Source: Thermodesulforhabdaceae bacterium (GTDB taxonomy: Bacteria; Desulfobacterota; Syntrophobacteria; Syntrophobacterales; Thermodesulforhabdaceae). From it: a DNA stretch of 64,000 nucleotides. A model generated the notes under the pieces. That model searched no databases. It worked only from the letters and a program-made list of their open reading frames with translations, and had not been told where the DNA came from. This document shows positions 6,243 through 53,880 of the stretch, piece after piece. The stretch covers positions 62,001 to 126,000 of the forward strand of contig JBBFKT010000004.1 of assembly GCA_037482015.1 (NCBI GenBank), written 5' to 3'. How positions within the stretch are numbered: the stretch's first letter is position 1; each line of letters begins with the position of its first letter. Made by a program: the position numbers and the translations under genes.

Positions 6243-7433
6243 TTAGACAACTCCCTGGGCTTTTAATGATGCAATATCAGAGCTACCCATACCCAGTTCC
6301 TGCGCGAGGATTTCTTCTGTGTGTTCTCCAAGTTCCGGTGCATGAGTTCTTACAGCTGCCTGAACTTTCTCGCAGCGAAGAACAGTCCCTAGCTGGCGGT
6401 ATGCTCCGTAATGTTCGTGAACCATTTTAACCACAAGCCCGCGAGCTATAAATTCTTCGTCATTTATAACTTCATCCAGGTTCCTTACCGGCTCGCAACA
6501 GCAATCCACTTGACTGAAGAATTCTATCCATTCTACTTGGGTGCGTTCCAGAAAAATATCCGTGATAGCTTTTATAAGATCTTTTTGATGTGAACCAGGT
6601 TCAAAATAAGCCGGCGTGACCCACTCCGGATGTCCCACAGCCTGGCAGAAAGCCTTCCAGAACTGAGGTTCCAGAGCTCCAAGACTCATGTAGCGTCCAT
6701 CCCTGGTTGGATAAATGTTGTAACAGGCCAACCCGTGGTTCAACATGTCGTCCCCGGGCCTGGGTATTTTGCCGTCGGCTAGGAATTTCCCCCACCGTAG
6801 AGCATGGAAAAGCAACAGTCCATCGGTCATTGAAACATCGACGAAATCTCCTTCGCCAGTTTTTTCCCGGTGATATAAGGCGGTCAAAATGCCGAAGGCT
6901 GCAAGTAGAGCTCCACCTCCGATATCTCCAATCTGAACTCCCGGAAGCACCGGCTCGCCGTTCTTCCCCGAATAAGAAAGCACACCACTTATAGCTAGGT
7001 AATTTATATCGTGTCCTGCTCGATGCGCTCTTAATCCTTCCCGCCCATAGCCCGTAATGGAACAGTAAACAAGCCGTGGATTCTCTTTTCGAAGTGTTTC
7101 ATATCCCACACCAAGCCGATCCATCACTCCAGGCCTGAAACTTTCCAGCACCACATCGGCATTTCTTACGAGTTTAAGAAAAATATCTCGCCCTCTGGGA
7201 TCTTTCAGATTAAGTGTAAGAGAGCGTTTATTACGATTGAGAACAACATGAAAACCGCTGGACTTTCCTAAAAATGGAGGCCACTGGCGAATATAGTCCC
7301 CACCTTTGGGATCTTCTATTTTGATAACATCCGCCCCAAAATCGGCAAAAAGCATTGAACAAAGCGGACCGGGGAGAAGTCTTGATAAATCAAGTATTCT
7401 AAGCCCATGAAAGGGCAAATTCGATTCTTTCAT
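6243..7433 (-). CDS. α-Methylacyl-CoA racemase-like enzyme (CoA-transferase family III)
   Basis: A 396-residue protein of the CaiB/BaiF family. The family includes formyl-CoA/carnitine CoA transferases and α-methylacyl-CoA racemase (AMACR), which inverts the 2-methyl centre so that the acyl-CoA can enter β-oxidation. The details favour the racemase group: AGHDINYLAISGVLS at about 140-154 (candidate catalytic H141), QIGDIGGG (D170) and GALEPQFW (E255). These three residues correspond to the His/Asp/Glu of mycobacterial MCR. It is the last gene of an eight-gene operon, 15 bases after the dehydrogenase. A CoA-transferase role cannot be excluded without assay. Confidence 0.85.
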   Translation of the reverse strand: MKESNLPFHGLRILDLSRLLPGPLCSMLFADFGADVIKIEDPKGGDYIRQWPPFLGKSSGFHVVLNRNKRSLTLNLKDPRGRDIFLKLVRNADVVLESFRPGVMDRLGVGYETLRKENPRLVYCSITGYGREGLRAHRAGHDINYLAISGVLSYSGKNGEPVLPGVQIGDIGGGALLAAFGILTALYHREKTGEGDFVDVSMTDGLLLFHALRWGKFLADGKIPRPGDDMLNHGLACYNIYPTRDGRYMSLGALEPQFWKAFCQAVGHPEWVTPAYFEPGSHQKDLIKAITDIFLERTQVEWIEFFSQVDCCCEPVRNLDEVINDEEFIARGLVVKMVHEHYGAYRQLGTVLRCEKVQAAVRTHAPELGEHTEEILAQELGMGSSDIASLKAQGVV

Positions 7434-7448: not shown

Positions 7449-8585
7449 CTACGAAGACAATCCAAGCCTTTTTGCCACAATAAGCCGCATTATTTCGTTT
7501 GTTCCTGCAAAGATGGGAATTACTCGCACATCTCGATAAAATCTCGCTATGGGATATTCTTCCATATAACCGTAGCCTCCATGAAGCTGCACACATTGAT
7601 AGGCTATTCGATTAGCCATTTCCGAAAGCCAGGTTTTACCCATGGAGACATCCACAACCACATCCTGTCCTTTCATATGACGCATAATGAGTTTTTCTAA
7701 AAAGGCTCGCCCCACGGCGATTTCTGTAGCCATATCCACAAGTTTGAAAGCATTGTGCTGGAATGTGCCTATAGGACGGCCGAAGGCTGTGCGTTCCCTG
7801 GCGTAGGTAAGAGTCATATCAAACATGGCTTCCGCCATAGCTTGAGCCATGATGCAGGCAAGAAGCCTTTCCTGCTGAAGATGTTCCATCATGTAGTAAA
7901 AACCTTTGTTTTCTTCCCCTAGAAGATTTTCTGCTGGCACTCTGCAGTCTTCGAAGATAAGTTCTGCGGTATCCTGCCCGTGTAAACCCATTTTTTTCAA
8001 ACGCCGTCCTCTCGAAAATCCTTCAGCGTCTCGCTCTACAACTATAAGACTTATGCCCCTGGCTCCTGAGTCTTTCGAACCCGTGCGACACGCTACAACC
8101 ATCAGATCGGCATGAATACCGTTTGAAATAAAGGTCTTCTGACCGTTAATAACCCACCAATCTCCATGCCTTTCGGCTCTGGTTGTGATAGAAGCAAGGT
8201 CTGACCCGGCGTTTGGTTCCGTCATGGCAATGGCAAGCACATATTCCCCTGATGCACACTTTGGAAGCCACCGTTTCTTCTGCTCTTCTGTCCCAAGATG
8301 ATAAATGTATGGCGCTACTATGTCGCTATGTAGTGGTGCCATGAGACTTATGGCTCCAGCTCTGGCAAGTTCTTCTGTGATAATTACGGAATAGAGAAAA
8401 TCAGCTCCGCTTCCTCCATATTCTTCCGGGAGCCAGGGGCAGAGAAAACCATGTTCACCAAGTTTATTCCATATTTCACGGTCAACCATGCCCTGTTCTT
8501 CCCATCTGGGAACATGAGGCACAACTTCGTGCTCTAAGAAACGACGAAAAGATTCGCGAAAGATCACATGTTCTTCCTTATACAT
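7449..8585 (-). CDS. Acyl-CoA dehydrogenase, long-chain/branched-chain (LCAD/IVD) type
   Basis: A 378-residue FAD enzyme that makes the 2,3-double bond of acyl-CoAs. The start at 8585 is chosen because GGAGGT lies nine bases upstream; a longer frame to 8666 adds an unlike sequence. Visible motifs are AMTEPNAGSDL (flavin/substrate loop, about 120-130), YQCVQLHGGYGYMEEYP and IFAGTNEIMR at the C-terminus. The catalytic Glu used by short/medium-chain enzymes (the E of YEGT) is Ala here. The alternative base of LCAD and isovaleryl-CoA dehydrogenase is present as E239 in QQERLLA. That points to long or branched substrates. No ETF genes are in the window. Confidence 0.92.
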   Translation of the reverse strand: MYKEEHVIFRESFRRFLEHEVVPHVPRWEEQGMVDREIWNKLGEHGFLCPWLPEEYGGSGADFLYSVIITEELARAGAISLMAPLHSDIVAPYIYHLGTEEQKKRWLPKCASGEYVLAIAMTEPNAGSDLASITTRAERHGDWWVINGQKTFISNGIHADLMVVACRTGSKDSGARGISLIVVERDAEGFSRGRRLKKMGLHGQDTAELIFEDCRVPAENLLGEENKGFYYMMEHLQQERLLACIMAQAMAEAMFDMTLTYARERTAFGRPIGTFQHNAFKLVDMATEIAVGRAFLEKLIMRHMKGQDVVVDVSMGKTWLSEMANRIAYQCVQLHGGYGYMEEYPIARFYRDVRVIPIFAGTNEIMRLIVAKRLGLSS

Positions 8586-8695
8586 GAGAAAACACCTCCG
8601 CGTGAGAATACAGTGAAGAATAAAGCTGTTATTCTGGAACTCTGCGGTAATCGTCGAAGAGATCACCGCAGAGTCCCATCATGTTGCGTCTTTAT

Positions 8696-10360
8696 CTACT
8701 TTTTCATGTAAAAGTCTTTGTATAGATCTCTGGCTACTCGCTTTGCAAATTTACCCACGCTGGTCTTGGGGATTTCATTAACGAAGAGCACTTCATCGGG
8801 AAGTTGCCATTTGGCAAACTTGGGGCGTATAAAGTCCAGGATGTCTTCCTTTGAGACTTTTCCTTCGTAGTCTTTACGAAGTATAACCAGCGCCAGAGGA
8901 CGTTCTTCCCACTTGGGATGAGGAATGCCTATGACTGTTGCTTCCAGCACGGCGGGGTGAGCCATAATAGCATTTTCTAGATCCACCGATGATATCCATT
9001 CTCCACCGCTTTTTATAAGATCTTTGAAACGGTCGGTGATCTTAAGGTAGCCGTATTCGTCTATGGTCCCAGCATCGCCACTTCGCCAGTAACCATCTTC
9101 CGTGAAGGCTTCCTGAGAGCGTGGATCGTTATAGTAAGATCCTGTGATCCAGGGACCTCGAATGATAACTTCCCCAACGCTTTTTCCATCGTGAGGAAGT
9201 GGATTGCCGTCAGGTCCCAGAATGTCCACATCAAGACCCATAACGGGGAGTCCCTGTTTTTTCTTGAGTTCCCATTTTGCGTCTTCATCCAGGAATTTCA
9301 GAGACGGTTTAAGATAATTGATTGTTACAAGTGGGGTTGTCTCTGTAGCACCGTAAGCATGTATTACCTGCGCTTTTCCTAAATCCCAGTAGCCTTTCAT
9401 CATAGCAAGCGGCGGCTCAGTTGCTCCAGATATCATCCTGAGTCCTGCCAGATCGGGCTTGGGATCCATAGCCCTTATACATTCCAGCATGGGCATGAAA
9501 ACTGCCGGTGCTCCGCATGTGGCAGAAACTTTCTCCTGAAGGATCAAATCTACTATTGGCTTCATATTGTCAACGGCATAACGACCCGGAAATACAAGTT
9601 TTGCGCCCACCATTGGAGCTGCAAAAAAGACGCCCCAACCCTGAGCATGAAACATAGGAACAAGTTGAAGCACTACGTCATCATGAGTGAGTCTCATGGC
9701 GTGAGCAATTGCCCATGTGTGAAGGTAAAGGGCTCGGTGAGACTGGTAAACCCCCTTCGGTTTGCCCGTTGTTCCCGATGTGTAGCAGGCAACAGCCGCC
9801 GACCTTTCATCCACCATGGGCCAGTCGTAAATGGGAGGTTGAGCCTGTAAAAGGGTTTCATAGTCCTGAGCATAAGAGGGGAGGGGCTTTGATGAATCGT
9901 CTCGCAGAATGATCACAGCTTTTATGCCGGGTAGATTGGGAAGAGATGGTTCAATAAGCGGGAGCATGGTTTCGCTAACAACCAGAAAACTTGCTTCGCT
10001 GTGTTGTAATACGTAAGTTCTTTCTTCATGAGATATTCTCGGGTTGACCTCAAGAAGCACAGCGCCTATGCCGGATACGGCAAAATACAGCTCACAAAAC
10101 CTGTGAGTGTTCCATTCCATAACGCCGACTCTATCCCCCGGTTTTACTCCAAGGGCTTCCAAGGCGTTAGCAAGCTGCTGAACCCGGCGGTAGGTATAAG
10201 CATAGTTTGATCGATAAAGAGATCCATCCAGGTTTCTCGAGACAACCTCCTGTTCTGGATAGACCTTTGCAGCAAATTTAAGGAAATTTATAAGGTTTAG
10301 CTGATAATCATCTTGCGACGTTGACGGGAAGCCTTTAATAATCTTCCATTTTGAATTCAT
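8696..10360 (-). CDS. Fatty-acid/acyl-CoA ligase (AMP-forming)
   Basis: A 554-residue member of the ANL superfamily that activates a carboxylic acid to its CoA thioester with ATP. The P-loop CYTSGTTGKPKGV lies near residue 205, then GATETTP in the middle, the GYWRSGD segment, and the C-terminal lid with ITDRFKDLIKSGGEWIS and the catalytic Lys in KTSVGKFAKR. It most resembles medium/long-chain ligases of the AlkK/FadD type. It is the sixth gene of the operon (transcribed from 16541 down to 6243), 32 bases after the hydratase gene. A second, different ligase is encoded two genes upstream of that hydratase gene, suggesting two kinds of acid or two stages of activation. Confidence 0.93.
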   Translation of the reverse strand: MNSKWKIIKGFPSTSQDDYQLNLINFLKFAAKVYPEQEVVSRNLDGSLYRSNYAYTYRRVQQLANALEALGVKPGDRVGVMEWNTHRFCELYFAVSGIGAVLLEVNPRISHEERTYVLQHSEASFLVVSETMLPLIEPSLPNLPGIKAVIILRDDSSKPLPSYAQDYETLLQAQPPIYDWPMVDERSAAVACYTSGTTGKPKGVYQSHRALYLHTWAIAHAMRLTHDDVVLQLVPMFHAQGWGVFFAAPMVGAKLVFPGRYAVDNMKPIVDLILQEKVSATCGAPAVFMPMLECIRAMDPKPDLAGLRMISGATEPPLAMMKGYWDLGKAQVIHAYGATETTPLVTINYLKPSLKFLDEDAKWELKKKQGLPVMGLDVDILGPDGNPLPHDGKSVGEVIIRGPWITGSYYNDPRSQEAFTEDGYWRSGDAGTIDEYGYLKITDRFKDLIKSGGEWISSVDLENAIMAHPAVLEATVIGIPHPKWEERPLALVILRKDYEGKVSKEDILDFIRPKFAKWQLPDEVLFVNEIPKTSVGKFAKRVARDLYKDFYMKK

Positions 10361-10392: not shown

Positions 10393-11235
10393 CTATTTTT
10401 CCTCTATCTCTGCTCTTACTCCCGACAGAGCATCACCCCTTTCTGTGGTAACCTGCAGGTGGTATATCCCCGGTTCCATTTTCCAGCCAGAGATCGTTAA
10501 GCTGTCTCCAGGGTAAACGACACTTGAAAATCTGCAACCAAAGGATTTCAGCCGTTCAACTTTTCCTTCACAGACCTGGTCGATGAGAGTGCGAACGGCG
10601 AAGCCAAAGGTGCAAAGTCCATGAAGAATTGGCTGAGGAAGCCCCGCAGCTTTTGCAAAATCAGGATCTATGTGAAGGGGGTTATAATCGCCGGAAAGTC
10701 TATAAAGAGCCGCCTGATTTTCCGATATTTTTTCGGTTACATTAAAGTCCGGTGGTCTGTCTTTGGGGTAATCATAAACCGGTTTCTTGGGTCCAGGATC
10801 TCCTCCCCAACCACCTAATCCTCGGCAGAAAAGAGTCATGCTCGTTTCAAAGAGCTTCTTACCGGCTTCGTCTTTTGACGTGCTTTCAAGTTCCACCAAT
10901 GCGGCTTTTGCTTTGTCATAAATACCAACAATTTTCACTTCCGTAAATATTTTTCCCTGAGATGGAATAGGTTCGAAAAGCCTTATAAATTCCTCCCCGT
11001 GAAGGACAGTTTTAAGGTCTATGTTTAGTTTTTCCAGGATTGGGAAAAGGGGTCCGTAGGTTGTGATGGTGGCAAAGGATGGGCAGACTTTTAGACCTCC
11101 TTTGGCTCGCTCGTAAACGTAATGAAGATCCGTTGCTCTGGCTCCTATGCCCAGATTGTAAAGAATCACATCCCGCCAGGTGTAAGACATTTCATATGGT
11201 CCAAAGCTTTTTCCCACAAGATCAAGGTTTATCAT
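10393..11235 (-). CDS. MaoC-family enoyl-CoA hydratase 2 (double hot-dog, MFE-2 type)
   Basis: A 280-residue protein with an N-terminal degenerate hot-dog domain (about 1-140) and a C-terminal catalytic one. The hydratase 2 motif YRLSGDYNPLHIDP is at about 178-191, with the catalytic pair D183 and H188, followed by PILHGLCTFG. Both halves read like the hydratase 2 unit of peroxisomal multifunctional enzyme 2, including LYNLGIGA near the start and LHGEEFIRL. It should form (3R)-hydroxyacyl-CoA from trans-2-enoyl-CoA, and the SDR just upstream would then oxidise it. The start has GGAGG about 10 bases upstream. Confidence 0.92.
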   Translation of the reverse strand: MINLDLVGKSFGPYEMSYTWRDVILYNLGIGARATDLHYVYERAKGGLKVCPSFATITTYGPLFPILEKLNIDLKTVLHGEEFIRLFEPIPSQGKIFTEVKIVGIYDKAKAALVELESTSKDEAGKKLFETSMTLFCRGLGGWGGDPGPKKPVYDYPKDRPPDFNVTEKISENQAALYRLSGDYNPLHIDPDFAKAAGLPQPILHGLCTFGFAVRTLIDQVCEGKVERLKSFGCRFSSVVYPGDSLTISGWKMEPGIYHLQVTTERGDALSGVRAEIEEK

Positions 11236-11305: not shown

Positions 11306-12130
11306 TTACCAGCCTCCTGTTACTTTAATGACCTGCCCGGATACGTAGTCAGAAAGAGGCGATGCAAGGAAGAGAATTACTCGAGCGGCTTCATCCGGAG
11401 TGCCGGGACGTCCCAGAGGGATCATCAGTCTGAAGACATCAAGATGTTCTTTTGGGACACCGATAGGAATCTTTTTGCCGTTTTTTTCCAGCACAGTATC
11501 TTCCTTTTTGGGTTGAGTAAGCCTTGTTTCTATCCAGCCAAAAGCTACAGCGTTTACGTTAACGTTGAGTTGTCCCCATTCTTTGGCTAGAGTTTTCGTA
11601 AAGCCGATAATACCTGCTTTAGCCGTTGAGTAGTTTGCCTGTCCGGCGTTTCCATCGGTGCCGGCAATTGAAGTTACGTTAACGATTTTTCTCATAACAA
11701 CTCGCCCTTCGGCTTTCTCCTTTTTGGCGTTTTCTCTGATGTAGGGTGCGGCAGCTCGAATGATTCTGAAAGGAGCCGTGCAATGAACCTTCAGCATGGC
11801 TTCCCATTGCTCATCTGCCATCTTGTGAACCACGCCGTCCCATGTATAACCGGCATTGTTGACTATGACATGAATGTCAGGTCCGAAAGCTTCGACCGAA
11901 GTTTTCACAAACCTTTCGGCAAAATCATCAGCCGTTACATCTCCCGTTATTCCTACAACTTCCCCGCCCTGATTTTTAATCTGGGTCATGACCTCTTCCA
12001 GCGGTTCTCGATCCAGATCGCTCAAAACCAGCCTGGCTCCTTCAGAAGCAAACAATAGAGCTGTTGCTCTTCCTATACCTCTTCCCGCTCCCGTGATTAA
12101 ACAGATTCTTCCATCAAGCATCTTTTCCAT
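11306..12130 (-). CDS. Short-chain dehydrogenase/reductase, probable 3-hydroxyacyl-CoA dehydrogenase
   Basis: A 274-residue SDR of the FabG-like classical group. It has the cofactor loop TGAGRGIGRA at about 14-23, NNAG near residue 90, and the catalytic Ser (VTSIAG) with YSTAK (Tyr/Lys). D38-like SDLD after strand 2 suggests NAD(H). The longer C-terminus has an insert between the active site and the closing GGW. It sits directly upstream of the hydratase 2 gene, mirroring the SDR plus hydratase 2 fusion of peroxisomal MFE-2, so oxidation of (3R)-hydroxyacyl-CoA is the likely role (inference). AAAGGAGG precedes the ATG at 12130. Confidence 0.9.
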   Translation of the reverse strand: MEKMLDGRICLITGAGRGIGRATALLFASEGARLVLSDLDREPLEEVMTQIKNQGGEVVGITGDVTADDFAERFVKTSVEAFGPDIHVIVNNAGYTWDGVVHKMADEQWEAMLKVHCTAPFRIIRAAAPYIRENAKKEKAEGRVVMRKIVNVTSIAGTDGNAGQANYSTAKAGIIGFTKTLAKEWGQLNVNVNAVAFGWIETRLTQPKKEDTVLEKNGKKIPIGVPKEHLDVFRLMIPLGRPGTPDEAARVILFLASPLSDYVSGQVIKVTGGW

Positions 12131-12152: not shown

Positions 12153-13811
12153 CTAGTTCATTTCGAGTCTTTTTCGGATGTCTTTACGAAGTTCTTTCTT
12201 AAGGACTTTGCCTACGGGATTTCTCGGGATCGCTTCCACGATTTCAAGCCGTTCAGGTAGCTTATAGGTAGCGACTCCCTGTTCCTTCATGTATGCGATG
12301 ACGTCATCTAGCGTGACAGTTTTTTCCGGTTTGGGAACAACATAAACGCATACTCGCTCACCCAGGTTTTCATCAGGCATTCCCACAGCTGCCACATCCT
12401 GAATGGCGGGATAAGCAAGTAAGATATTTTCTATTTCTTGAGCGCTGATATTGTAGCCGCCTCGTATGATGATATCTTTGGCACGATCGAAAAACTTCAA
12501 GTATCGATCCCCAGCGATTGAGAAAAGATCTCCTGTGAGGAAGTATCCTTCTTCATCGAAAGCCGTTTCATTAAGGTCTGGTCTTTTGAAGTAACCAGGA
12601 ATGACGTTAGGACCTCGATATAAGAGCTCTCCCACGGCGCCATCTTCGTTGAGTTCGGAACCATCTGGAGCCACTACTTTGATTTGTATGAATTTAGCCA
12701 TTGGAGTGGACCATTCTACCCCTGGAACCCCATACCTGGGGAAGTGATCCACTCTGACCTTCATATCCGGCACATCCGCCACACTGGATACAATCGCTGT
12801 TCCTTCGTTTTGTCCCCATATGTTGCCAATATCTATGTTCCAGCGCTTTTTAAATTCCTCCATTGCCCAAAGGGAAGGTGGTGCGGATCCTACCGTGATA
12901 GTTCTTATAGAACTCAGGTCAAAGGTGTGAGATGCAGGATGTTTTAAAATCAGATTAACGACAGCAGGCACTAGCAGAGTATAATTAATGCGCTCTTCGA
13001 CCATCTGCTTCAGAAGTATCTGTGGGTCAAAAGGATGGTGTAGTATGACGGTTCCCCCGTAGCGTAACCATGGAATGAAGACCGTGCCAACCGATGCCAT
13101 ATTTACAAGAGGGCCCGCTGTGAGCATGATGTCGCTCGGTTTTACAACAGCTCCCGCTACGCCAGCCTGACATCGCCAATTATTGTGACTGAGCGGACAT
13201 CCTTTGGGTTGAGCCTCGGTTCCAGATGTCCAGCATATGGTGAAAATATCGTTTGGATCGGTGTGAATATTATCAAGATCAGGATCAGGCGATTCTTGCA
13301 TCATGAGTCGTATGTCTTCATAGGTAAAGATCTTCTTCAGGCCAGGAACCTGCTGGCTGACTTCCTCTGCCATAGATTTAAAGGGAAAGCCGTGGAATTC
13401 TTTAACTGTAATCATTGCTTTTGCTTCAGTTAGTTGAGCCACATAGCTTACTTCTCTAGACCGCCATTGCATTGGCATAGGAGATATGATTCCACCGGCA
13501 CGAGCAATTGCCAGATAGAGCATCCCTAACTCCCAGCAATTAGGGAGTTGAACCATAACGATGTCGTCTTTGCCTATTCCTTCAGCCTTTAGACTGGTGG
13601 CTACAGAATCGACGGCTTTAGCAAAATCTTTGTAGCTGATTCTTTCAGGTAGTGATCCCACAAGGGCTTCTTTGTTAGGTGGATCTACAAATGCAGTAGC
13701 TTCCGGCATCTTCAAAACGTGTTCTCTGAAATCGTCCAAAAGCGTTCTGCGAGTTTCCCAACAACCCTTTTGGGTGTATTCTTTTATTTTGTCGGGCGTT
13801 GCTAAGATCAT
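12153..13811 (-). CDS. Acyl-CoA ligase (AMP-forming), cyclohexanecarboxylate/dihydroxybenzoate-like
   Basis: A 552-residue ANL-family ligase. The N-terminal MILATPDKIKEYTQKGCWE and the P-loop ICWTSGTEAQPKGCPLSH resemble ligases annotated for cyclohexanecarboxylate or 2,3-dihydroxybenzoate more than fatty-acid ligases. The C-terminal lid (FDRAKDIIIRGGYNIS, RNPVGKVLKKELR) carries the usual catalytic Lys. AAGGAGGG precedes the ATG. It is the third gene of the operon, 47 bases after the thiolase. It differs clearly from the ligase at 8696-10360, so the operon may accept a cyclic or branched acid as well as a linear chain. The exact substrate cannot be read from the sequence. Confidence 0.9.
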   Translation of the reverse strand: MILATPDKIKEYTQKGCWETRRTLLDDFREHVLKMPEATAFVDPPNKEALVGSLPERISYKDFAKAVDSVATSLKAEGIGKDDIVMVQLPNCWELGMLYLAIARAGGIISPMPMQWRSREVSYVAQLTEAKAMITVKEFHGFPFKSMAEEVSQQVPGLKKIFTYEDIRLMMQESPDPDLDNIHTDPNDIFTICWTSGTEAQPKGCPLSHNNWRCQAGVAGAVVKPSDIMLTAGPLVNMASVGTVFIPWLRYGGTVILHHPFDPQILLKQMVEERINYTLLVPAVVNLILKHPASHTFDLSSIRTITVGSAPPSLWAMEEFKKRWNIDIGNIWGQNEGTAIVSSVADVPDMKVRVDHFPRYGVPGVEWSTPMAKFIQIKVVAPDGSELNEDGAVGELLYRGPNVIPGYFKRPDLNETAFDEEGYFLTGDLFSIAGDRYLKFFDRAKDIIIRGGYNISAQEIENILLAYPAIQDVAAVGMPDENLGERVCVYVVPKPEKTVTLDDVIAYMKEQGVATYKLPERLEIVEAIPRNPVGKVLKKELRKDIRKRLEMN

Positions 13812-13858: not shown

Positions 13859-15055
13859 TTATGTGCCAAATATAGCCATACTGCACACACTGAAGGCTGG
13901 TATTCCGCCCAGGTTGTGAGTAAGTCCAAGTTTGGGATTTGGGATCTGACGGGGACCAGCTTTTCCCTGTAGTTGCTTATAAACTTCGTAAATCATTCTT
14001 AGACCTGACGCTCCGATGGGATGGCCAAAGCATTTAAGCCCGCCGTCAGACTGACAGGGAATCTTGCCGGTAAGTTCGAAAAGCCCGTCGTTTATATCGT
14101 GAATAGCTCGTCCTCTTTCGGAAATTTGCAGATCTTCGTAAGTTACCAGCTCAGTAATTGAAAAGCAGTCGTGCACTTCGAGAATGCTTATTTGTTCTCT
14201 CGGCTTCTGTATTCCTGCTTCTTTGTAGGCTCTGATGGCGGCTTCCGTTGTGGTTTTAAGGTATGTGCCGTCCCAGCGATTCGTGTAAAGTTCCTCTCCC
14301 GATGTTGCGGCTACCTGAAGAGCCTTAACAAAAATCGGATCTTTACGGATGGAACGAGCAATTTCCGGTGTGGTTACGATAGCTGCCGCCGCTCCATCGC
14401 TTACACCGCAGCAATCAAACAATCCGAGAGGCCAGGCAATAATGGGTGCCTTAAGGACTTGCTCCTCAGTTATCTCCTTTCTCAAGTGAGCCTTAGGGTT
14501 CAAAGCCCCGGCTCGATGGCTCTTGCATGATATTTTTGCTAGAGCTCGCTTTCCTTCCTCCGGGTTGATACCGTATTTGGCAAAATAACGGGTAGCCATG
14601 AGAGCAAAACCGCCGGGAGCGGTAAAGTTTGGCAGGATGAACCGATTGAGAGTGCCCATAACCGCCCCAAAATCGGGAAGCCCGCCGTATCCTGTGTCCT
14701 TGAGTTTTTCCACACCCAGAGCCAGCGCGATCTTGACTGCTCCGGAAGCAACAGCGTAACAGGCACCCCTGAAAGCCTCTGTTCCCGTTGCACAAAAGTT
14801 TTCTACTCGGGTTACAGGAATGTTCTGAAGCTTTAACGTCTGGGCCAGTGGAATGGCGCTTTTTCCAACATTTACTTCATCGAAGCAGATTCCAAGCCAT
14901 GCGGCTTCAATTTCCTTTTTTTCTATCCCGGCGTCTTCGAGTGCCTCCTGAAAGGCTTCAACCATTAGATCTTCGGCTCCAGCATCCCATCTTTCTCCGA
15001 ATCTCGTGCATCCCATGCCTATGATGGCAACTTTATCTTTTATTCCCGAAGCCAT
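13859..15055 (-). CDS. SCP2/lipid-transfer-type thiolase
   Basis: A 398-residue thiolase-fold enzyme for the last step of β-oxidation. The nucleophilic Cys is present (C88 in VENFCATGTEA), as is the C-terminal GHPIGASG loop. The end reads THNLGGIPAFSV rather than the CxGGG of classical thiolases, which places it with the SCP2/archaeal acetoacetyl-CoA thiolase group that works with DUF35 proteins. Its neighbour upstream, 28 bases away, carries a DUF35 domain. In archaea, thiolase, DUF35 and HMG-CoA synthase form a complex, so a physical partnership here is a reasonable inference. Confidence 0.9.
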   Translation of the reverse strand: MASGIKDKVAIIGMGCTRFGERWDAGAEDLMVEAFQEALEDAGIEKKEIEAAWLGICFDEVNVGKSAIPLAQTLKLQNIPVTRVENFCATGTEAFRGACYAVASGAVKIALALGVEKLKDTGYGGLPDFGAVMGTLNRFILPNFTAPGGFALMATRYFAKYGINPEEGKRALAKISCKSHRAGALNPKAHLRKEITEEQVLKAPIIAWPLGLFDCCGVSDGAAAAIVTTPEIARSIRKDPIFVKALQVAATSGEELYTNRWDGTYLKTTTEAAIRAYKEAGIQKPREQISILEVHDCFSITELVTYEDLQISERGRAIHDINDGLFELTGKIPCQSDGGLKCFGHPIGASGLRMIYEVYKQLQGKAGPRQIPNPKLGLTHNLGGIPAFSVCSMAIFGT

Positions 15056-15083: not shown

Positions 15084-16541
15084 TTAGCGCTTTACTATAG
15101 GCACCGCTTTCCAAAAGTAGGTGTGAACACCGCGGTGACGGTCGTGGTATTTACGACGGAAAGAAAGTTCTACTTCCATCCCAACCTGAAGTTCGCCAAG
15201 ATTACAGTCGGTAAAATCAAGCATCATCCTTCCGCCTTCTTCAAAGTCGATGATGCCGTAGATTTGAGGGGGATCGTAGGAAAAGGCGAGATTGTCTCCC
15301 GTATAACTGAATATATGAGCCTTTTTCCGGGAAAAGCTGTATGGTTCCATTTTATTCACCGCCTGACATTCGCTTACAACACAGATACGCTGCGGAGGAA
15401 ACTGCGGTGTGCCACATTGAATGCATCGAGAGCCCACTAGACCAAGAAGAGCCTTACGGTTACGCCAGACTACAGACAGCGGACTTTCAGCCTGAAATTC
15501 TCCTCTAAGCCCTGTCTCTACTTCCAGGACTTCCCTGAAGGCGAGAAATTTTTGATAGGCTATGGGGGCTTTCCGGTTTAGCATTTCTTCAAAGGATTTC
15601 GCTGACTTTACTGAGCCTATGAGTTCTGTTGCCTCGAAATGAAGTAAATCCACACCGCTTCCGTAACCTATAAGCAGAATCTGGTCTCCAGGTTGGCACT
15701 GTTCAAGAGCCTGGCTAAGCAGAATTAGAGGGTGAGCAGAACCCGTATCCCCCACATTAAGAAAAAGTGGATTAAAGATTTGTTCATCAGAAAAACCAGC
15801 CATTTTCCCGATAAGTGAGTGTTCTCTAGGATAGGGGCATGGGTAAATTATAAATCGAAATTTATCTGGAGATAGGGACTTCTGAGCAAGATAAGTTTTG
15901 ACGGCGTGAGGGATGAACTTCGTAAAACCCTCATCTCGCATCCATCGTTCTTCCCATACTCTTGGAAACGACCTGGATGGTTCTCTAAGAGGTGATGGAA
16001 AATCGGCAGAGAAGGAGAGACTTCCTCTAAAAGCGGCAATAACTCGATCTTTTCCCACCAAAACTGCTGCTCCCCCGTCACCCTGTAGGAATTCATCCGA
16101 ACTCCCAGGCTTGGTCTTTCTGACTTCGCTGGCTGTTACGATGCCCCAGGAGACATCTCCTGCTTGAAGACGTTCGAGAGCAGAAAGGAGAGCCGTTGTT
16201 CCGGATCTGGTGCTTCCTGAAAAATCCGCCGTGGATACAAAATCGGCGCATTCCAGAGCTTCGGCGATGATGGCTGAGTTAAGCCTTTCTGAATATGGAA
16301 AGCTTGTTGATGCGGCGTGAAGTAAACCCTTTGATTTATGAACTGGCGAAGGATCGATTATGGCATTTCTTGAAGCCGCTACAGCCAGAGTGATGGCATC
16401 CTCATCGTAGTTTGCTACCGTGCGTTCTCCGGAAGCTAGCCCCAAGGTTGTGGCATTGATCCACGATATTGCTTTTGCCATTTCTTTTCGATCTAAGCGG
16501 TATCTTGGTAGATAAGCCCCGAAACCTGTGATTCCAACCAT
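15084..16541 (-). CDS. HMG-CoA-synthase-like protein fused to a DUF35 (Zn-ribbon/OB) domain, catalytic residues lost
   Basis: A 485-residue fusion. Residues 1-345 have the HMG-CoA synthase/KAS III fold (start MVGITGFGAYLPRYRL as in archaeal enzymes; DGGAAVLVG near 155). Residues 355-485 are DUF35, with a rubredoxin-like Zn ribbon (C373, C376, C387, C392) and an OB fold. Aligned by eye to HMG-CoA synthase, the catalytic Glu, Cys and His are replaced: T79 (AASTSFP), T111 (GSTRSGT) and P234 (IIYPCP). It is therefore unlikely to be a normal synthase; it may be a CoA-binding scaffold or an aldolase-like enzyme for the adjacent thiolase. It is the first gene of the operon. Confidence 0.88.
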   Translation of the reverse strand: MVGITGFGAYLPRYRLDRKEMAKAISWINATTLGLASGERTVANYDEDAITLAVAASRNAIIDPSPVHKSKGLLHAASTSFPYSERLNSAIIAEALECADFVSTADFSGSTRSGTTALLSALERLQAGDVSWGIVTASEVRKTKPGSSDEFLQGDGGAAVLVGKDRVIAAFRGSLSFSADFPSPLREPSRSFPRVWEERWMRDEGFTKFIPHAVKTYLAQKSLSPDKFRFIIYPCPYPREHSLIGKMAGFSDEQIFNPLFLNVGDTGSAHPLILLSQALEQCQPGDQILLIGYGSGVDLLHFEATELIGSVKSAKSFEEMLNRKAPIAYQKFLAFREVLEVETGLRGEFQAESPLSVVWRNRKALLGLVGSRCIQCGTPQFPPQRICVVSECQAVNKMEPYSFSRKKAHIFSYTGDNLAFSYDPPQIYGIIDFEEGGRMMLDFTDCNLGELQVGMEVELSFRRKYHDRHRGVHTYFWKAVPIVKR

Positions 16542-16580: not shown

Positions 16581-16599
16581 TTAACTGACCGACCGTTAA
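16581..16599. promoter_or_regulatory. Candidate TetR-type operator upstream of the acyl-CoA operon
   Basis: TTAACTGACCGACCGTTAA is a partial palindrome (TTAAC and GTTAA arms around TGACCGACC) lying 40 bases upstream of the first gene of the operon. GACCGACC cores are common in operators of TetR-family regulators of fatty-acid degradation. A related GACCGTTCCGGT lies about 50 bases further on. No regulator gene is nearby. The 258-base gap up to the OmpA gene holds nothing else that I could support. Confidence 0.45.
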
Positions 16600-16800
16600 G
16601 TTTAAGCCTACAAAACTATTATAAGCCTGTCAATATGAAACTTTTGACCGTTCCGGTTTATTTTCCAACCCCTGACAATATCTTCGTTTGAAACTTGCCC
16701 TTAGCTAAAACTCTTTACGCTGTTTCGAAGCTATTGTAACTTAACAAATACATGGTTATGCAGGCAGGGTAGAAAAATTGGAAAGGGAGGGCAAAGCCGT

Positions 16801-19058: not shown

Positions 19059-21059
19059 CTAAATCGTTCTACCGGCGTCGAATCCGCCATGTATAGCATC
19101 AAAGGCTTTGCCGATTTTCGATGCATCGCCCACAATGTGGTAGGGTATGTTCAGTTCCTGAAGAACTGTTTCAATTTCCCGATTTGGTCTAGCACCTGTT
19201 GCCACTACTACCGTGTCAGCTTTTATTAACCTTTTACCTTCCGATGTTTCGACTACAACACCTTCGGAAGTGATTTCCAATACCTTCGATGAAGTTAACA
19301 CATTTACACCGTGTATCTGCAAATCCTGCATAAAACACCATCTGGTCGATAGACCAATGTCTTTTCCTATTTCTGGGAGCATTTCAATTATAGTGATCTT
19401 TTTAGTGCCCTGTGTTGCCATTTGGAGAATCAGTTCAGAATCCTTTGCTTGATGAGTGAGAAGGAATTTAAGGGATTCGGCATCTATGGTTCCTTTTTCA
19501 GCGAGATACAGGGCGGTTTCGATCCCGACCGCGCCACCTCCGATTATCACTACATTTTTTCCCGTCCACACCTTTCCCATCAAGACATCCCAGGCATGAA
19601 CTACATGATCGCTTTTTATGCCGGGAATGGGAAGTTCGGTAGGTTCGGCACCGGTTGCCAGTATAACAACGTCCGGTTTCTCTCGCTCCAGAAGTTCTCG
19701 GGTAACTGGGGTATTAAGCATTACGGGAATACGGCGTGCAGATACCTGTTTGACGAGATCTGAAGCAAGTTGCAGAAATTCTTCCCGTCCTGGAGGCGCT
19801 CCAGCAAGAAGAAGCTGTCCACCAAGACGATTGCCTTTTTCATAAAGCGTTACATTGTGACCTCTATCGTGAGCAGTGATAGCTGCGCTCATGCCTGCTG
19901 CTCCACCGCCTACAATCATTACTTTCTTGGATTGTGGAGCTTTTTCAACTACTTTCTCTCGTTCGTGGCCAGCTCGAGGATTACAAAGACATTCTACAGA
20001 CTTCATTTTGAACAGGTTATCGAAACAACCCTGAGCGCAGGCAACACAGTGGACGATTTCATGTTCTCTTCCAGAGCGAGCTTTTTCGGGCAGGAAAGGA
20101 TCTGCTATAAGAGCTCGCCCCATTGCGACCATGTCGCAAAAATGGTTACCTATGAGTTCCCGGGCTGTATAAGGATCGTTTATACGATGACCAGCGATAA
20201 CCGGCACAGAGAACAATTCCTTGAAGTATCTAGCAAGATAAGCATAGGCTCCTCTTGGCACTTCAGCAATAATTTGTGGAACTCTAGCCTCATGCCATCC
20301 TACATTTACATTTATAGCATTAGCACCGACTTCTATAAGGCGTTTTACGTATTCTGTGAGTTCCTCTCGAGTTATTCCCCCCGGCATAAGATCATTTCCA
20401 TTGACACGAACAAGTATTGGAAAATCATCTCCCACAGCTTTCCGAACGGCTTGAATGACTTCGATACCAAACCGCATACGATTTTCTGGCGATCCACCAT
20501 ATTCGTCCGTGCGCTGATTTGTAAGGGGTGACAGAAATTCACTGATAAGGTAACCGGTTCCGCTCAAGATTTCTACAGCATCAAAGCCGGCTTTTTTTAC
20601 TCGCCTTGCAGCATCGGCAAATCTGGTGATGGTGGTCTTGATCTCTTCAAGGGTCATTTCTCTTGGGGTTTCTTTGGTCAATCGCGAAGGAATTGGCGAT
20701 GGAGCTACGGGTTGTTTTCCTCCAAGGAAAACGGAGAGATTGTATCTTCCAGCATGGTTAAGCTGAACTGCTGCACGTGCTCCGTGACGTTTTATGGTGG
20801 AAGCAAGATTCTTGAGTCCAGGAATGAATTCATCCTTATGGGCTCCAATGTGGCCTGGAGGTCCGGAATACTCATCTACCGTAGCGAAACCGACTGTAAT
20901 TAACCCAGCCCCTCCCCGAGCTCTTTCTTCGTAAAAATCTACGATCTGATCGGTCACAAAGAAGTTTTTTGCCATGTTTAAATGCATAGCAGGCATAAGA
21001 ATACGGTTTTTTACTTCAAGATTGTGGATGAAAATTGGTTCAAAAAGCGGATCTTTCAT
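19059..21059 (-). CDS. NADH:flavin oxidoreductase, 2,4-dienoyl-CoA reductase-like (FadH/enoate reductase type)
   Basis: A 666-residue three-cofactor enzyme, close in size to E. coli FadH. Residues ~1-330 are an old-yellow-enzyme TIM barrel for FMN (QLNHAGR, the CDMVAMGRALIADP segment). Cysteines spaced C-x2-C-x3-C-x11-C near 335-355 bind a 4Fe-4S cluster. The rest is an FAD/NAD(P) Rossmann module (MIVGGGAAGMSAA; VVIIGGGAVGIETA). FadH reduces 2,4-dienoyl-CoA, clearing double bonds during β-oxidation, which fits the nearby acyl-CoA operon. Other 2-enoate reductases share this layout. AGGGAGGGGG precedes the ATG. Confidence 0.9.
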   Translation of the reverse strand: MKDPLFEPIFIHNLEVKNRILMPAMHLNMAKNFFVTDQIVDFYEERARGGAGLITVGFATVDEYSGPPGHIGAHKDEFIPGLKNLASTIKRHGARAAVQLNHAGRYNLSVFLGGKQPVAPSPIPSRLTKETPREMTLEEIKTTITRFADAARRVKKAGFDAVEILSGTGYLISEFLSPLTNQRTDEYGGSPENRMRFGIEVIQAVRKAVGDDFPILVRVNGNDLMPGGITREELTEYVKRLIEVGANAINVNVGWHEARVPQIIAEVPRGAYAYLARYFKELFSVPVIAGHRINDPYTARELIGNHFCDMVAMGRALIADPFLPEKARSGREHEIVHCVACAQGCFDNLFKMKSVECLCNPRAGHEREKVVEKAPQSKKVMIVGGGAAGMSAAITAHDRGHNVTLYEKGNRLGGQLLLAGAPPGREEFLQLASDLVKQVSARRIPVMLNTPVTRELLEREKPDVVILATGAEPTELPIPGIKSDHVVHAWDVLMGKVWTGKNVVIIGGGAVGIETALYLAEKGTIDAESLKFLLTHQAKDSELILQMATQGTKKITIIEMLPEIGKDIGLSTRWCFMQDLQIHGVNVLTSSKVLEITSEGVVVETSEGKRLIKADTVVVATGARPNREIETVLQELNIPYHIVGDASKIGKAFDAIHGGFDAGRTI

Positions 21060-51854: not shown

Positions 51855-52675
51855 AGCACATGAATTCCGATGTAAAAACCAGATGGATTACTGCTCTCGT
51901 CATAGCCTTTCCGGTTGTTCTTTTGCTTTCCGTTGGAACTCGCTGGATGTGGTGCATAGCTATTGTGATTGCGACTTTTCTTTCTGCAAAGGAGTTTTCC
52001 CAGCTTTTCAGAGAACATTTAAATAATAAAAGTAGTGAAGCAGTTTTACTGCTCCTGGCATCTTCATTTCCCGTTGCGGCTTTTTTCTTCAAAACCGAAG
52101 GTCTTCACCTGGTTCTTTTTCTTGCCTTCCTAGGATTGATGGCTCACTGTTTATTTCTACACCCTTCTGATCGCTTACTTCCGGTTCGTCATGCCTTCAC
52201 TCTTCTTGGAGCTATCTACTCTGGTTATTTCTTGAGCTATGTTCTTTTGTTTACTCGCCCTGATAATTCGCTTGAGCGAGGTCTCCTTTTTTCTACGATT
52301 ATTACAGTTGTGGCTAGTGATGCGGGGGCTTTCTTTTGCGGTAGAAAGTGGGGAAGGCATTTGCTATGTCCTGGAGTAAGCCCTAAAAAAACTGTGGAAG
52401 GGCTTATAGGAGGAACTATAGTAGGTATTTTTCTTGGAACTTTATCTGCTATAGTCATTGCCGGGCAGAACTCACCTATTAAGGCACTTTTCTTCGCTCT
52501 AACTGTGACTATAGTTGCTCCTTTTGGAGATCTTATTGAATCGATGTTCAAGCGGTATTGGGGCGTTAAAGATTCGGGGAGCTTACTACCGGGTCATGGC
52601 GGCGTTCTTGATAGGCTCGACAGCTATATTATGGCTTTTCCAGCCGCGTATTTTTACAGGTGGTTAATATGGTAA
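51836..52675 (+). CDS. cdsA: Phosphatidate cytidylyltransferase (CDP-diacylglycerol synthase)
   Basis: A 279-residue membrane enzyme with about eight hydrophobic segments that makes CDP-diacylglycerol. The signature near the C-terminus, VKDSGSLLPGHGGVLDRLDS, is clear, and SPKKTVEGLIGG is present. The start (GTG 51836 or 51851, or ATG 51860) is uncertain since it lies in the end of uppS. The stop overlaps the dxr start. Confidence 0.95.
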   Translation: MRISIVKHMNSDVKTRWITALVIAFPVVLLLSVGTRWMWCIAIVIATFLSAKEFSQLFREHLNNKSSEAVLLLLASSFPVAAFFFKTEGLHLVLFLAFLGLMAHCLFLHPSDRLLPVRHAFTLLGAIYSGYFLSYVLLFTRPDNSLERGLLFSTIITVVASDAGAFFCGRKWGRHLLCPGVSPKKTVEGLIGGTIVGIFLGTLSAIVIAGQNSPIKALFFALTVTIVAPFGDLIESMFKRYWGVKDSGSLLPGHGGVLDRLDSYIMAFPAAYFYRWLIW

Positions 52676-53880
52676 CATCTGATAACGAATATCCCGCAGT
52701 AAAAAATATTGTCATTTTGGGATCAACAGGATCAATAGGGCGTAACACTTTAGATGTGGTGCGCCAATTCCCAAACCGTTTCAAAGTGATTGGTTTAGCT
52801 GCTGGTGAAAATCTCTCTCTCCTTCTAAAGCAAATACAGGAGTTTAATCCATCGGTAGTTTGCGTAAAGTCTTTTCATGAAGCCAGCAAACTGAGAGATA
52901 TGCTTGCAGATTTTCCCGATGATCGACATCCTGAGATTCTGTGGAGCGATAATGGCTATTGCGATATTGCATCTCTCCCCGAAGCTCATATAGTTGTCTC
53001 AGCTATTGTTGGAGCGGCTGGGCTTCTACCCACGATGTATGCTATTCGTGCTGGCAAGGATATTGCTTTAGCAAACAAGGAAACTTTGGTAATCGCCGGA
53101 TCTCTGGTGACGTCGGAAGTAGATCGAACTGGTGTAAGGCTTCTTCCTGTGGATAGTGAGCATAACGCTATATTTCAGGCTATGGAAGGGCACAAAAGAC
53201 TTCATGTTAGGAGAGTTCTTCTTACTGCATCGGGAGGACCTTTTCTACATTTTAGCCGCGAAGAACTGGAACATGTAACGCCTCAACAGGCTTTGAAACA
53301 TCCCAAATGGTCGATGGGTAAAAAAATCACTGTCGATTCGGCAACTCTCATGAATAAAGGCTTGGAACTGATTGAAGCTCATTGGCTTTTTAGACTACCA
53401 CCAGATCGTATAGACATTCATATCCACCCGGAAAGCATTGTGCATTCTATGGTTGAATACATAGATGGCTCGGTTTTGGCTCATCTTGCAGTTCCGGATA
53501 TGAGAATCCCAATAGCCTATGCCTTATCCTATCCTGATCGCCTTCCAATTCAGATCCCGAGATTGAATCTTTTTGAGGTCGGGAAGCTTACCTTTTTGCC
53601 ACCAGACGAAACCAGGTTCCCATGTCTTGGTCTAGCCAAGGATGTTTGCAGGCAAAAGGGCACCTTACCGGCAGTGCTCAACGCAGCAAATGAAGTAGCG
53701 GTTGAAGCTTTTCTGGAAGGTCGTATAAGTTTTTATGGTATTCCCAAACTGATAGAACATGTCATGAATGAACATCTAAAGCTTCATGGAAATATCGAGC
53801 CTACAAGTCTAGATGCGATTTTGCAAGTAGATGCATGGGCAAGAAATGAAGCCAGATCGTATGTGGCCAGGAAGTTTTAG
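52669..53880 (+). CDS. dxr: 1-Deoxy-D-xylulose 5-phosphate reductoisomerase
   Basis: A 403-residue enzyme of the MEP isoprenoid pathway (DXP to MEP with NADPH). GSTGSIGRNTLDVV binds the cofactor, and ANKETLVIAG, PVDSEHNAIFQ and the HPKWSMGKKITVDSATLMNKGLE region (in parts) form the active site. The ATG at 52669 overlaps the cdsA stop, with AGGTGG five bases upstream. Its presence means the cell makes isoprenoids without HMG-CoA, so the HMG-CoA-synthase-like gene at 15084 is not needed for that. Confidence 0.98.
   Translation: MVTSDNEYPAVKNIVILGSTGSIGRNTLDVVRQFPNRFKVIGLAAGENLSLLLKQIQEFNPSVVCVKSFHEASKLRDMLADFPDDRHPEILWSDNGYCDIASLPEAHIVVSAIVGAAGLLPTMYAIRAGKDIALANKETLVIAGSLVTSEVDRTGVRLLPVDSEHNAIFQAMEGHKRLHVRRVLLTASGGPFLHFSREELEHVTPQQALKHPKWSMGKKITVDSATLMNKGLELIEAHWLFRLPPDRIDIHIHPESIVHSMVEYIDGSVLAHLAVPDMRIPIAYALSYPDRLPIQIPRLNLFEVGKLTFLPPDETRFPCLGLAKDVCRQKGTLPAVLNAANEVAVEAFLEGRISFYGIPKLIEHVMNEHLKLHGNIEPTSLDAILQVDAWARNEARSYVARKF

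Follow-up and report, generated by a model that had tools for sequence, protein, structure and literature searches.

A triad-less HMG-CoA synthase-like/DUF35 fusion protein as the probable scaffold subunit of a bacterial thiolase

The first gene of a predicted beta-oxidation operon in the window (the whole stretch of 64,000 nucleotides that was analysed) encodes a domain resembling HMG-CoA synthase (HMGCS) fused to a DUF35 domain. The HMGCS-like half has kept its fold and lost its catalytic Glu, Cys and His, and the gene is tightly paired with that of an SCP2-type thiolase with intact active-site residues. We propose, with a probability of roughly 0.8, that the fusion is a non-catalytic scaffold or pocket subunit of a heteromeric CoA-dependent thiolase, comparable to PhlA and PhlB joined in one chain. 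The original prediction had proposed a CoA-binding scaffold. The scaffold role for its thiolase neighbour, with the archaeal thiolase-DUF35-HMGCS complex as a parallel, is supported, and a contribution to CoA binding is possible. The fusion gene, its domains and the relevant codons are:

15084..16541, minus strand (16541→15084): HMGCS-like/DUF35 fusion gene, 485 aa, ATG start, first gene of the operon
15522..16541, minus strand: HMGCS-like domain, residues 1-340, triad replaced; aligns over 1-340 with 6ESQ_I
15087..15467, minus strand: DUF35 domain, residues 359-485 (zinc ribbon and OB fold); PF12172, PF01796, 6ESQ_E
15366..15425, minus strand: zinc ribbon, C373-x2-C376 ... C387-x4-C392, invariant in the 75-sequence alignment
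16305..16307, minus strand: codon of T79 at the catalytic Glu position (Glu82 of the 6ESQ HMGCS); Thr in 70/76 family members
16209..16211, minus strand: codon of T111 at the catalytic Cys position (Cys114 of the 6ESQ HMGCS); variable, Cys in 0/76 members
15840..15842, minus strand: codon of P234 at the catalytic His position, from the alignment to 6ESQ_I; Pro in 50/76
15837-15839, minus strand: codon of C235, directly after the lost His; Cys in 59/76

The plus strand across 15084-16541 is full of stops, and a GGGAGG-type ribosome-binding site precedes the ATG of the fusion gene. Two HMGCS models match residues 1-340, both under their curated cut-offs (NF003274, E 3.8e-63, 213.6 vs 244 bits; TIGR00748, E 1.9e-49, 168.8 vs 353.35 bits). 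The two DUF35 Pfam models, zf-ChsH2 and OB_ChsH2_C, match residues 368-462 and pass their gathering scores (24.5 vs 23.2 and 40.1 vs 27.1 bits), and 6ESQ_E aligns by sequence with residues 359-483 of this half (E 1.7e-15). A GDGGAA block occupies residues 154-159; G154 and D155 as well as C373, C376, C387 and C392 are invariant among 75 homologues. The second zinc-ribbon Cys pair is C-x4-C (C387-C392) in the subfamily of the window and C-x2-C in a more distant subfamily (L062, L064, L071-L078).

AlphaFold2 modelled the fusion from the 75-sequence alignment with a pLDDT of 92.8 and a pTM of 0.94. The best PDB match of the model is 6ESQ_I (Z 46.1, rmsd 1.7, 334 residues, 28% identity; Foldseek and VIA-align), so that the structural alignment to HMG-CoA synthase suggested earlier finds the HMGCS fold present. 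In the VIA-align ranking, which covers Foldseek's own matches while the DUF35 half was compared by sequence, the HMGCS chains of 6ESQ and 6ET9 (Z 46) come before those of PhlABC (5M3K, 5MG5) and 9SKH (Z ~44) and of MucABC (9VBO, 9VBT; Z ~40), and the HMGCS-like chains of all three complexes outrank ordinary HMGCS (Z up to 38.6) and FabH. The fold, the DGGAA block, the four-Cys zinc ribbon and the OB domain named in the original prediction are borne out by these domain and fold matches and by the conserved residues.

The HMGCS-like half is supported by sequence as a catalytically dead HMGCS fold. In the phmmer alignment with the HMGCS of Methanothermococcus (6ESQ_I, E 2.9e-40), which is ungapped at all three catalytic sites, SESHPY corresponds to STSFPY in the fusion at the Glu site, FACKAGT to GSTRSGT at the Cys site and VFHQPN to IYPCPY at the His site. 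Glu82 and Cys114 are the catalytic residues of the 6ESQ enzyme (PMC6392133). The assignment of T79, T111 and P234 to the catalytic Glu, Cys and His, previously made by hand, is thereby confirmed. Not one of 100 complete fusions has Glu or Asp, Cys or His at the three sites, whereas Glu, Cys and His are all present in 16/16 unfused archaeal-type HMGCS; the loss of the triad is therefore not a matter of chance. At the Cys site the 76 distinct fusions carry Leu (34), Thr (13), Gln (12), Ile (8) and others (Val, Ser, Ala, Phe). A KSQ-type decarboxylase, for which the Gln at this position in 12/76 was considered, was rejected, as the His is lost too and the Gln is not general.

The 100 complete fusions comprise 76 distinct ones, most of which came from a single phylum-wide search and a contig scan with narrow peptide patterns (12 loci), 10 from plasmids of Sphingomonas, Azoarcus, Variovorax, Sphingobium, Tistrella, Rhodococcus, Streptomyces and haloarchaea, and 14 from a search of Chloroflexota, the phylum of the Anaerolineae locus L013; L107 and L112 are incomplete and were excluded from the counts. 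The 16 unfused HMGCS are 14 from the Chloroflexota search, 6ESQ and L013. Both kinds occur in Chloroflexota and are perfectly segregated, the fusions lacking the triad and the 14 unfused HMGCS all carrying Glu, Cys and His. In a FastTree phylogeny of the HMGCS-like domain, which has no outgroup and gives a midpoint view only, the 100 fusions stand apart from all other sequences (SH-like support 0.992), the unfused active HMGCS form a group (0.996), and PhlA, MucABC and a Priestia homologue form a separate clade (1.0); 6ESQ, PhlA and MucABC entered the alignments as the segments aligned in the phmmer output rather than as full chains. The simplest reading of this unrooted tree would be two separate losses of the triad, one in the fusions and one in PhlA/MucABC. 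Since these losses appear separate, conversion of the archaeal-type channelling complex into a thiolase scaffold seems to have happened on more than one occasion.

The triad-less fusion is thus the rule of a large family and not peculiar to this genome. Haloarchaeal plasmids (L101, L102) carry a thiolase followed by a triad-less HMGCS-DUF35 fusion on a long branch, by all appearances the same solution in archaea. The Natrialba copy adjoins 3-hydroxyacyl-CoA and acyl-CoA dehydrogenases. We found no study of the HMGCS-DUF35 fusion in the open-access library searched, where absence is no proof of absence, and the family is apparently uncharacterised. Annotated homologues are labelled OB-fold domain-containing protein, 3-oxoacyl-ACP synthase III C-terminal domain-containing protein or, wrongly, hydroxymethylglutaryl-CoA synthase. 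The last label is borne at least by WP_279338249.1 of Streptomyces cathayae (L100, 4896-6281), which is a triad-less fusion, and such misannotation may be systematic.

Downstream of the fusion gene, the operon continues with:

13859..15055, minus strand: SCP2-type thiolase, 398 aa, active-site residues C88, HDCF (295-298) and GHP (H345) all intact; separated from the fusion gene by 28 bp
12153..13811, minus strand: acyl-CoA ligase, from family matches
11306..12130, minus strand: SDR, probable (3R)-hydroxyacyl-CoA dehydrogenase, from family matches; YSTAK in close relatives
10393..11235, minus strand: enoyl-CoA hydratase of the MaoC / MFE-2 hydratase-2 family (PF22622, PF01575)
8696..10360, minus strand: second acyl-CoA ligase, from family matches
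7449..8666, minus strand: acyl-CoA dehydrogenase, from family matches
6243..7433, minus strand: CaiB-type CoA transferase, closing the operon; named from its sequence

The thiolase gene lies immediately downstream on the same strand in all 79 fusion genes with enough flanking sequence (79/79). This adjacency extends to Alpha- and Betaproteobacteria, Rhodococcus and Streptomyces; in haloarchaea the gene order is reversed. Among 74 paired thiolases the nucleophilic Cys is present in 73 (one gap), the Cys of the HD-C-F motif in 73 and GHP in all 74; for each of C88, H295, C297 and H345, conservation is 73/74 or better. The thiolase and the DUF35 domain have one match each in the genome, both inside the operon. 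By sequence, the thiolase matches 6ESQ_A, 5M3K_C, 9SKH_I and 9VBO_E, chains of all three complexes. Each of the three parts of the proposed assembly thus matches the archaeal complex, and two of them, the HMGCS-like part and the thiolase, match PhlACB and MucABC as well. A shared fold is no proof of function, but that the parts agree on a single kind of assembly is strong circumstantial evidence. A thiolase fused to the scaffold (a Rosetta stone) was not seen among the relatives, whose long frames are SDR(-SCP2) fusions.

All operon genes lie on the minus strand, 15 to 70 bp apart, and judging by their family assignments they make up a complete beta-oxidation set including activation. The same gene set recurs beside fusion homologues in distant bacteria, and the operon is also present in Desulfacinum, a relative that can be cultivated. 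A role of the fusion in mevalonate synthesis was rejected, in agreement with the earlier caution that such synthesis is not implied: in the genome there is no match to HMG-CoA reductase, for which the same search was positive in control genomes, and no HMGCS scoring over the cut-off. A dxr gene, recognised from its ORF translation only, lies at about 52660-53880 of the window. Upstream of the fusion gene on the minus strand (16581-16633), a TTGACA hexamer at 16628-16633 is followed ~30 bp further on by TTAACGGTCGGTCAGTTAA at 16581-16599. Palindromes of the AACGAGCGCTCGGTT type occur at the matching site in the relatives L004, L005, L006 and L007 and in degenerate form in L002; these palindromes resemble a TetR-family operator that would control the operon. 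A BaiCD-like or mycofactocin-type OYE flavoenzyme is encoded near the operon (19059-21059, minus strand) and has relatives near homologous operons (L002 5551-7554, 81% identity; L049; L052). It is possibly an enoyl-CoA reductase for the operon's pathway.

In 18 sampled relatives the fusion extends into an SDR, mostly followed by a C-terminal SCP2 domain as judged by length and two Pfam scans; these relatives were chosen for their long open frames, and their number is not a frequency. The gene beside them usually encodes MaoC-SDR(-SCP2) (L043-L060), the parts list of peroxisomal MFE-2, and the YxxxK motif is kept in both SDR types. Judged from their domains, these fused forms would tether to the thiolase scaffold the very type of dehydrogenase that would make the thiolase substrate, and they point independently to beta-oxidation. 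HMGCS-DUF35-SDR(-SCP2) proteins beside MaoC-SDR(-SCP2) polyproteins amount to an MFE-2-like beta-oxidation architecture in bacteria, and the combination of ligase, acyl-CoA dehydrogenase, hydratase-2, SDR and thiolase with the scaffold module, sometimes with SCP2, resembles peroxisomal D-specific beta-oxidation.

From these observations we infer a physical complex and a part for the fusion in its acyl/CoA pocket, as well as which way the reaction runs and on what substrate. With Glu, Cys and His gone, the HMGCS-like half would no longer be able to synthesise HMG-CoA. The DUF35 half, with its zinc ribbon and OB fold, would dock the fusion onto the SCP2-type thiolase, the product of the next gene. 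If the archaeal complex and PhlACB are a guide, the dead half would lie against the thiolase active site, where its emptied pocket may line or close the acyl/CoA pocket, contributing to both the CoA-binding site and the acyl-chain pocket. In the archaeal complex, CoA sits at the interface of all three proteins, and PhlACB has one continuous cavity lined by PhlA, PhlB and PhlC (PMC6392133). The chemistry would be left to the thiolase alone (C88, H295, C297, H345), the reaction probably being the CoA-dependent cleavage of the 3-oxoacyl-CoA delivered by the SDR of the operon, the last step of beta-oxidation.

Conservation within the family could also mean that a new active site, formed by C235 or by R141, D155 and E197, has arisen in the HMGCS-like half and catalyses another acyl-CoA reaction, such as hydrolysis, decarboxylation or acyl transfer, alongside the thiolase. 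R141 (78/86), D155 (82/86) and E197 (83/86) are conserved specifically in this family, which differs from 6ESQ, PhlA and MucABC at these positions, and C235 stands right beside the lost His. However, the 17 of 76 fusions without Cys at residue 235 have Ala, Gly, Val, Pro, Asn or Ser there, and the old nucleophile position drifts freely among the eight residues listed above, as expected of a site without chemistry. Moreover, the FabH fold often contains GDGA-type motifs, which need not take part in catalysis. We therefore regard a new active site as unlikely. Rather improbable, too, is its more specific form, in which R141, D155 and E197, with or without C235, would support a second acyl-CoA reaction whose product is passed to or from the thiolase via a shared CoA site; if true, the complex would be a channelled two-step enzyme that kept the archaeal architecture and changed the chemistry of one half.

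A complex that forms C-C bonds by Claisen condensation or C-acylation, like the archaeal thiolase/HMGCS or PhlACB, would agree with the solved relatives of the whole assembly, which work in the synthetic direction or are acyl transferases (PDB entry titles; PMC6392133). Yet acyl-CoA dehydrogenase, hydratase, SDR, CoA ligases and CoA transferase form a degradation module that recurs in distant bacteria, and no biosynthetic gene was seen adjoining the operon, which makes the biosynthetic direction very unlikely. The original prediction had also considered a retro-aldol partner, comparable with the Ltp2-DUF35 aldolase, in a complex that would cleave 3-hydroxyacyl-CoA as Ltp2-ChsH2 and Sal-Shy do. 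DUF35 domains indeed couple hydratases to the Ltp2 and Sal aldolases of the same superfamily (PMC12329534, PMC11321319). Aldolases of the thiolase fold carry YDHF (Ltp2) or YDCY (Sal, with Gly at the nucleophile position), whereas SCP2 thiolases carry HDCF (PMC12329534); because C88, HDCF and GHP are kept, the partner is by its residues a thiolase rather than an aldolase. The SDR of the operon would furthermore supply a 3-oxo substrate suited to a thiolase, and DUF35 is fused here to an HMGCS-like domain instead of a hydratase. Taken together, this comparison is not supported, and retro-aldol cleavage is the least probable of the readings considered.

A non-catalytic scaffold of the thiolase accordingly remains our preferred reading. 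It comes with a simple rule: an HMGCS fused to DUF35 is a dead synthase, a free-standing one is alive. The rule covers a widespread family without established function in many bacteria and some archaea, where an HMGCS annotation of the triad-less fusion would wrongly suggest a mevalonate pathway. The conserved beta-oxidation module is a tractable target for finding the substrate.

PhlACB and MucABC, absent from the original prediction, are the closest precedents. PhlACB of Pseudomonas (5M3K, 5MG5; relative 9SKH) likewise combines a dead HMGCS-like PhlA, a DUF35 protein PhlB and a thiolase-type PhlC with an active Cys. Structures establish PhlA, which lacks the catalytic Cys and Glu, as a subunit; the acyl-transfer residues are confined to PhlC, which alone touches the substrate, and the complex is needed for activity, as individually expressed subunits are inactive when mixed (PMC6392133). 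Unlike the present fusion, which unites the HMGCS-like and DUF35 parts in one chain and belongs to a beta-oxidation operon, PhlACB consists of three separate chains and transfers acetyl groups between phenolics without CoA, and PhlA stands apart from the fusions in the tree. MucABC of Streptococcus macacae (9VBO, 9VBT) is also a thiolase-type acyltransferase complex with a triad-less HMGCS-like subunit, which has Cys, Glu and Gln aligned with the Glu, Cys and His positions; its chains are separate, however, it belongs to the secondary-metabolite cluster muc (PMC9112991), and it groups with PhlA and not with the fusions. The archaeal acetoacetyl-CoA thiolase/HMGCS/DUF35 complex (6ESQ, 6ET9) has the same three parts and gives the best fold match, but its HMGCS is active (Glu, Cys, His), it serves the mevalonate pathway and its DUF35 protein is a separate chain. 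The benzoylsuccinyl-CoA thiolase BbsAB (7PXP), which completes an anaerobic beta-oxidation, also pairs its thiolase with a DUF35/zinc-finger subunit, yet it lacks an HMGCS-like domain and its thiolase is more distant (7PXP_C, E 7.6e-45; BbsB model far under its cut-off). Finally, the steroid aldolases Ltp2-ChsH2 and Sal-Shy also bind a thiolase fold to DUF35, itself fused with a further enzyme of the pathway, but they carry YDHF or YDCY in place of the C88, HDCF and GHP found here, and their DUF35 is fused to MaoC.
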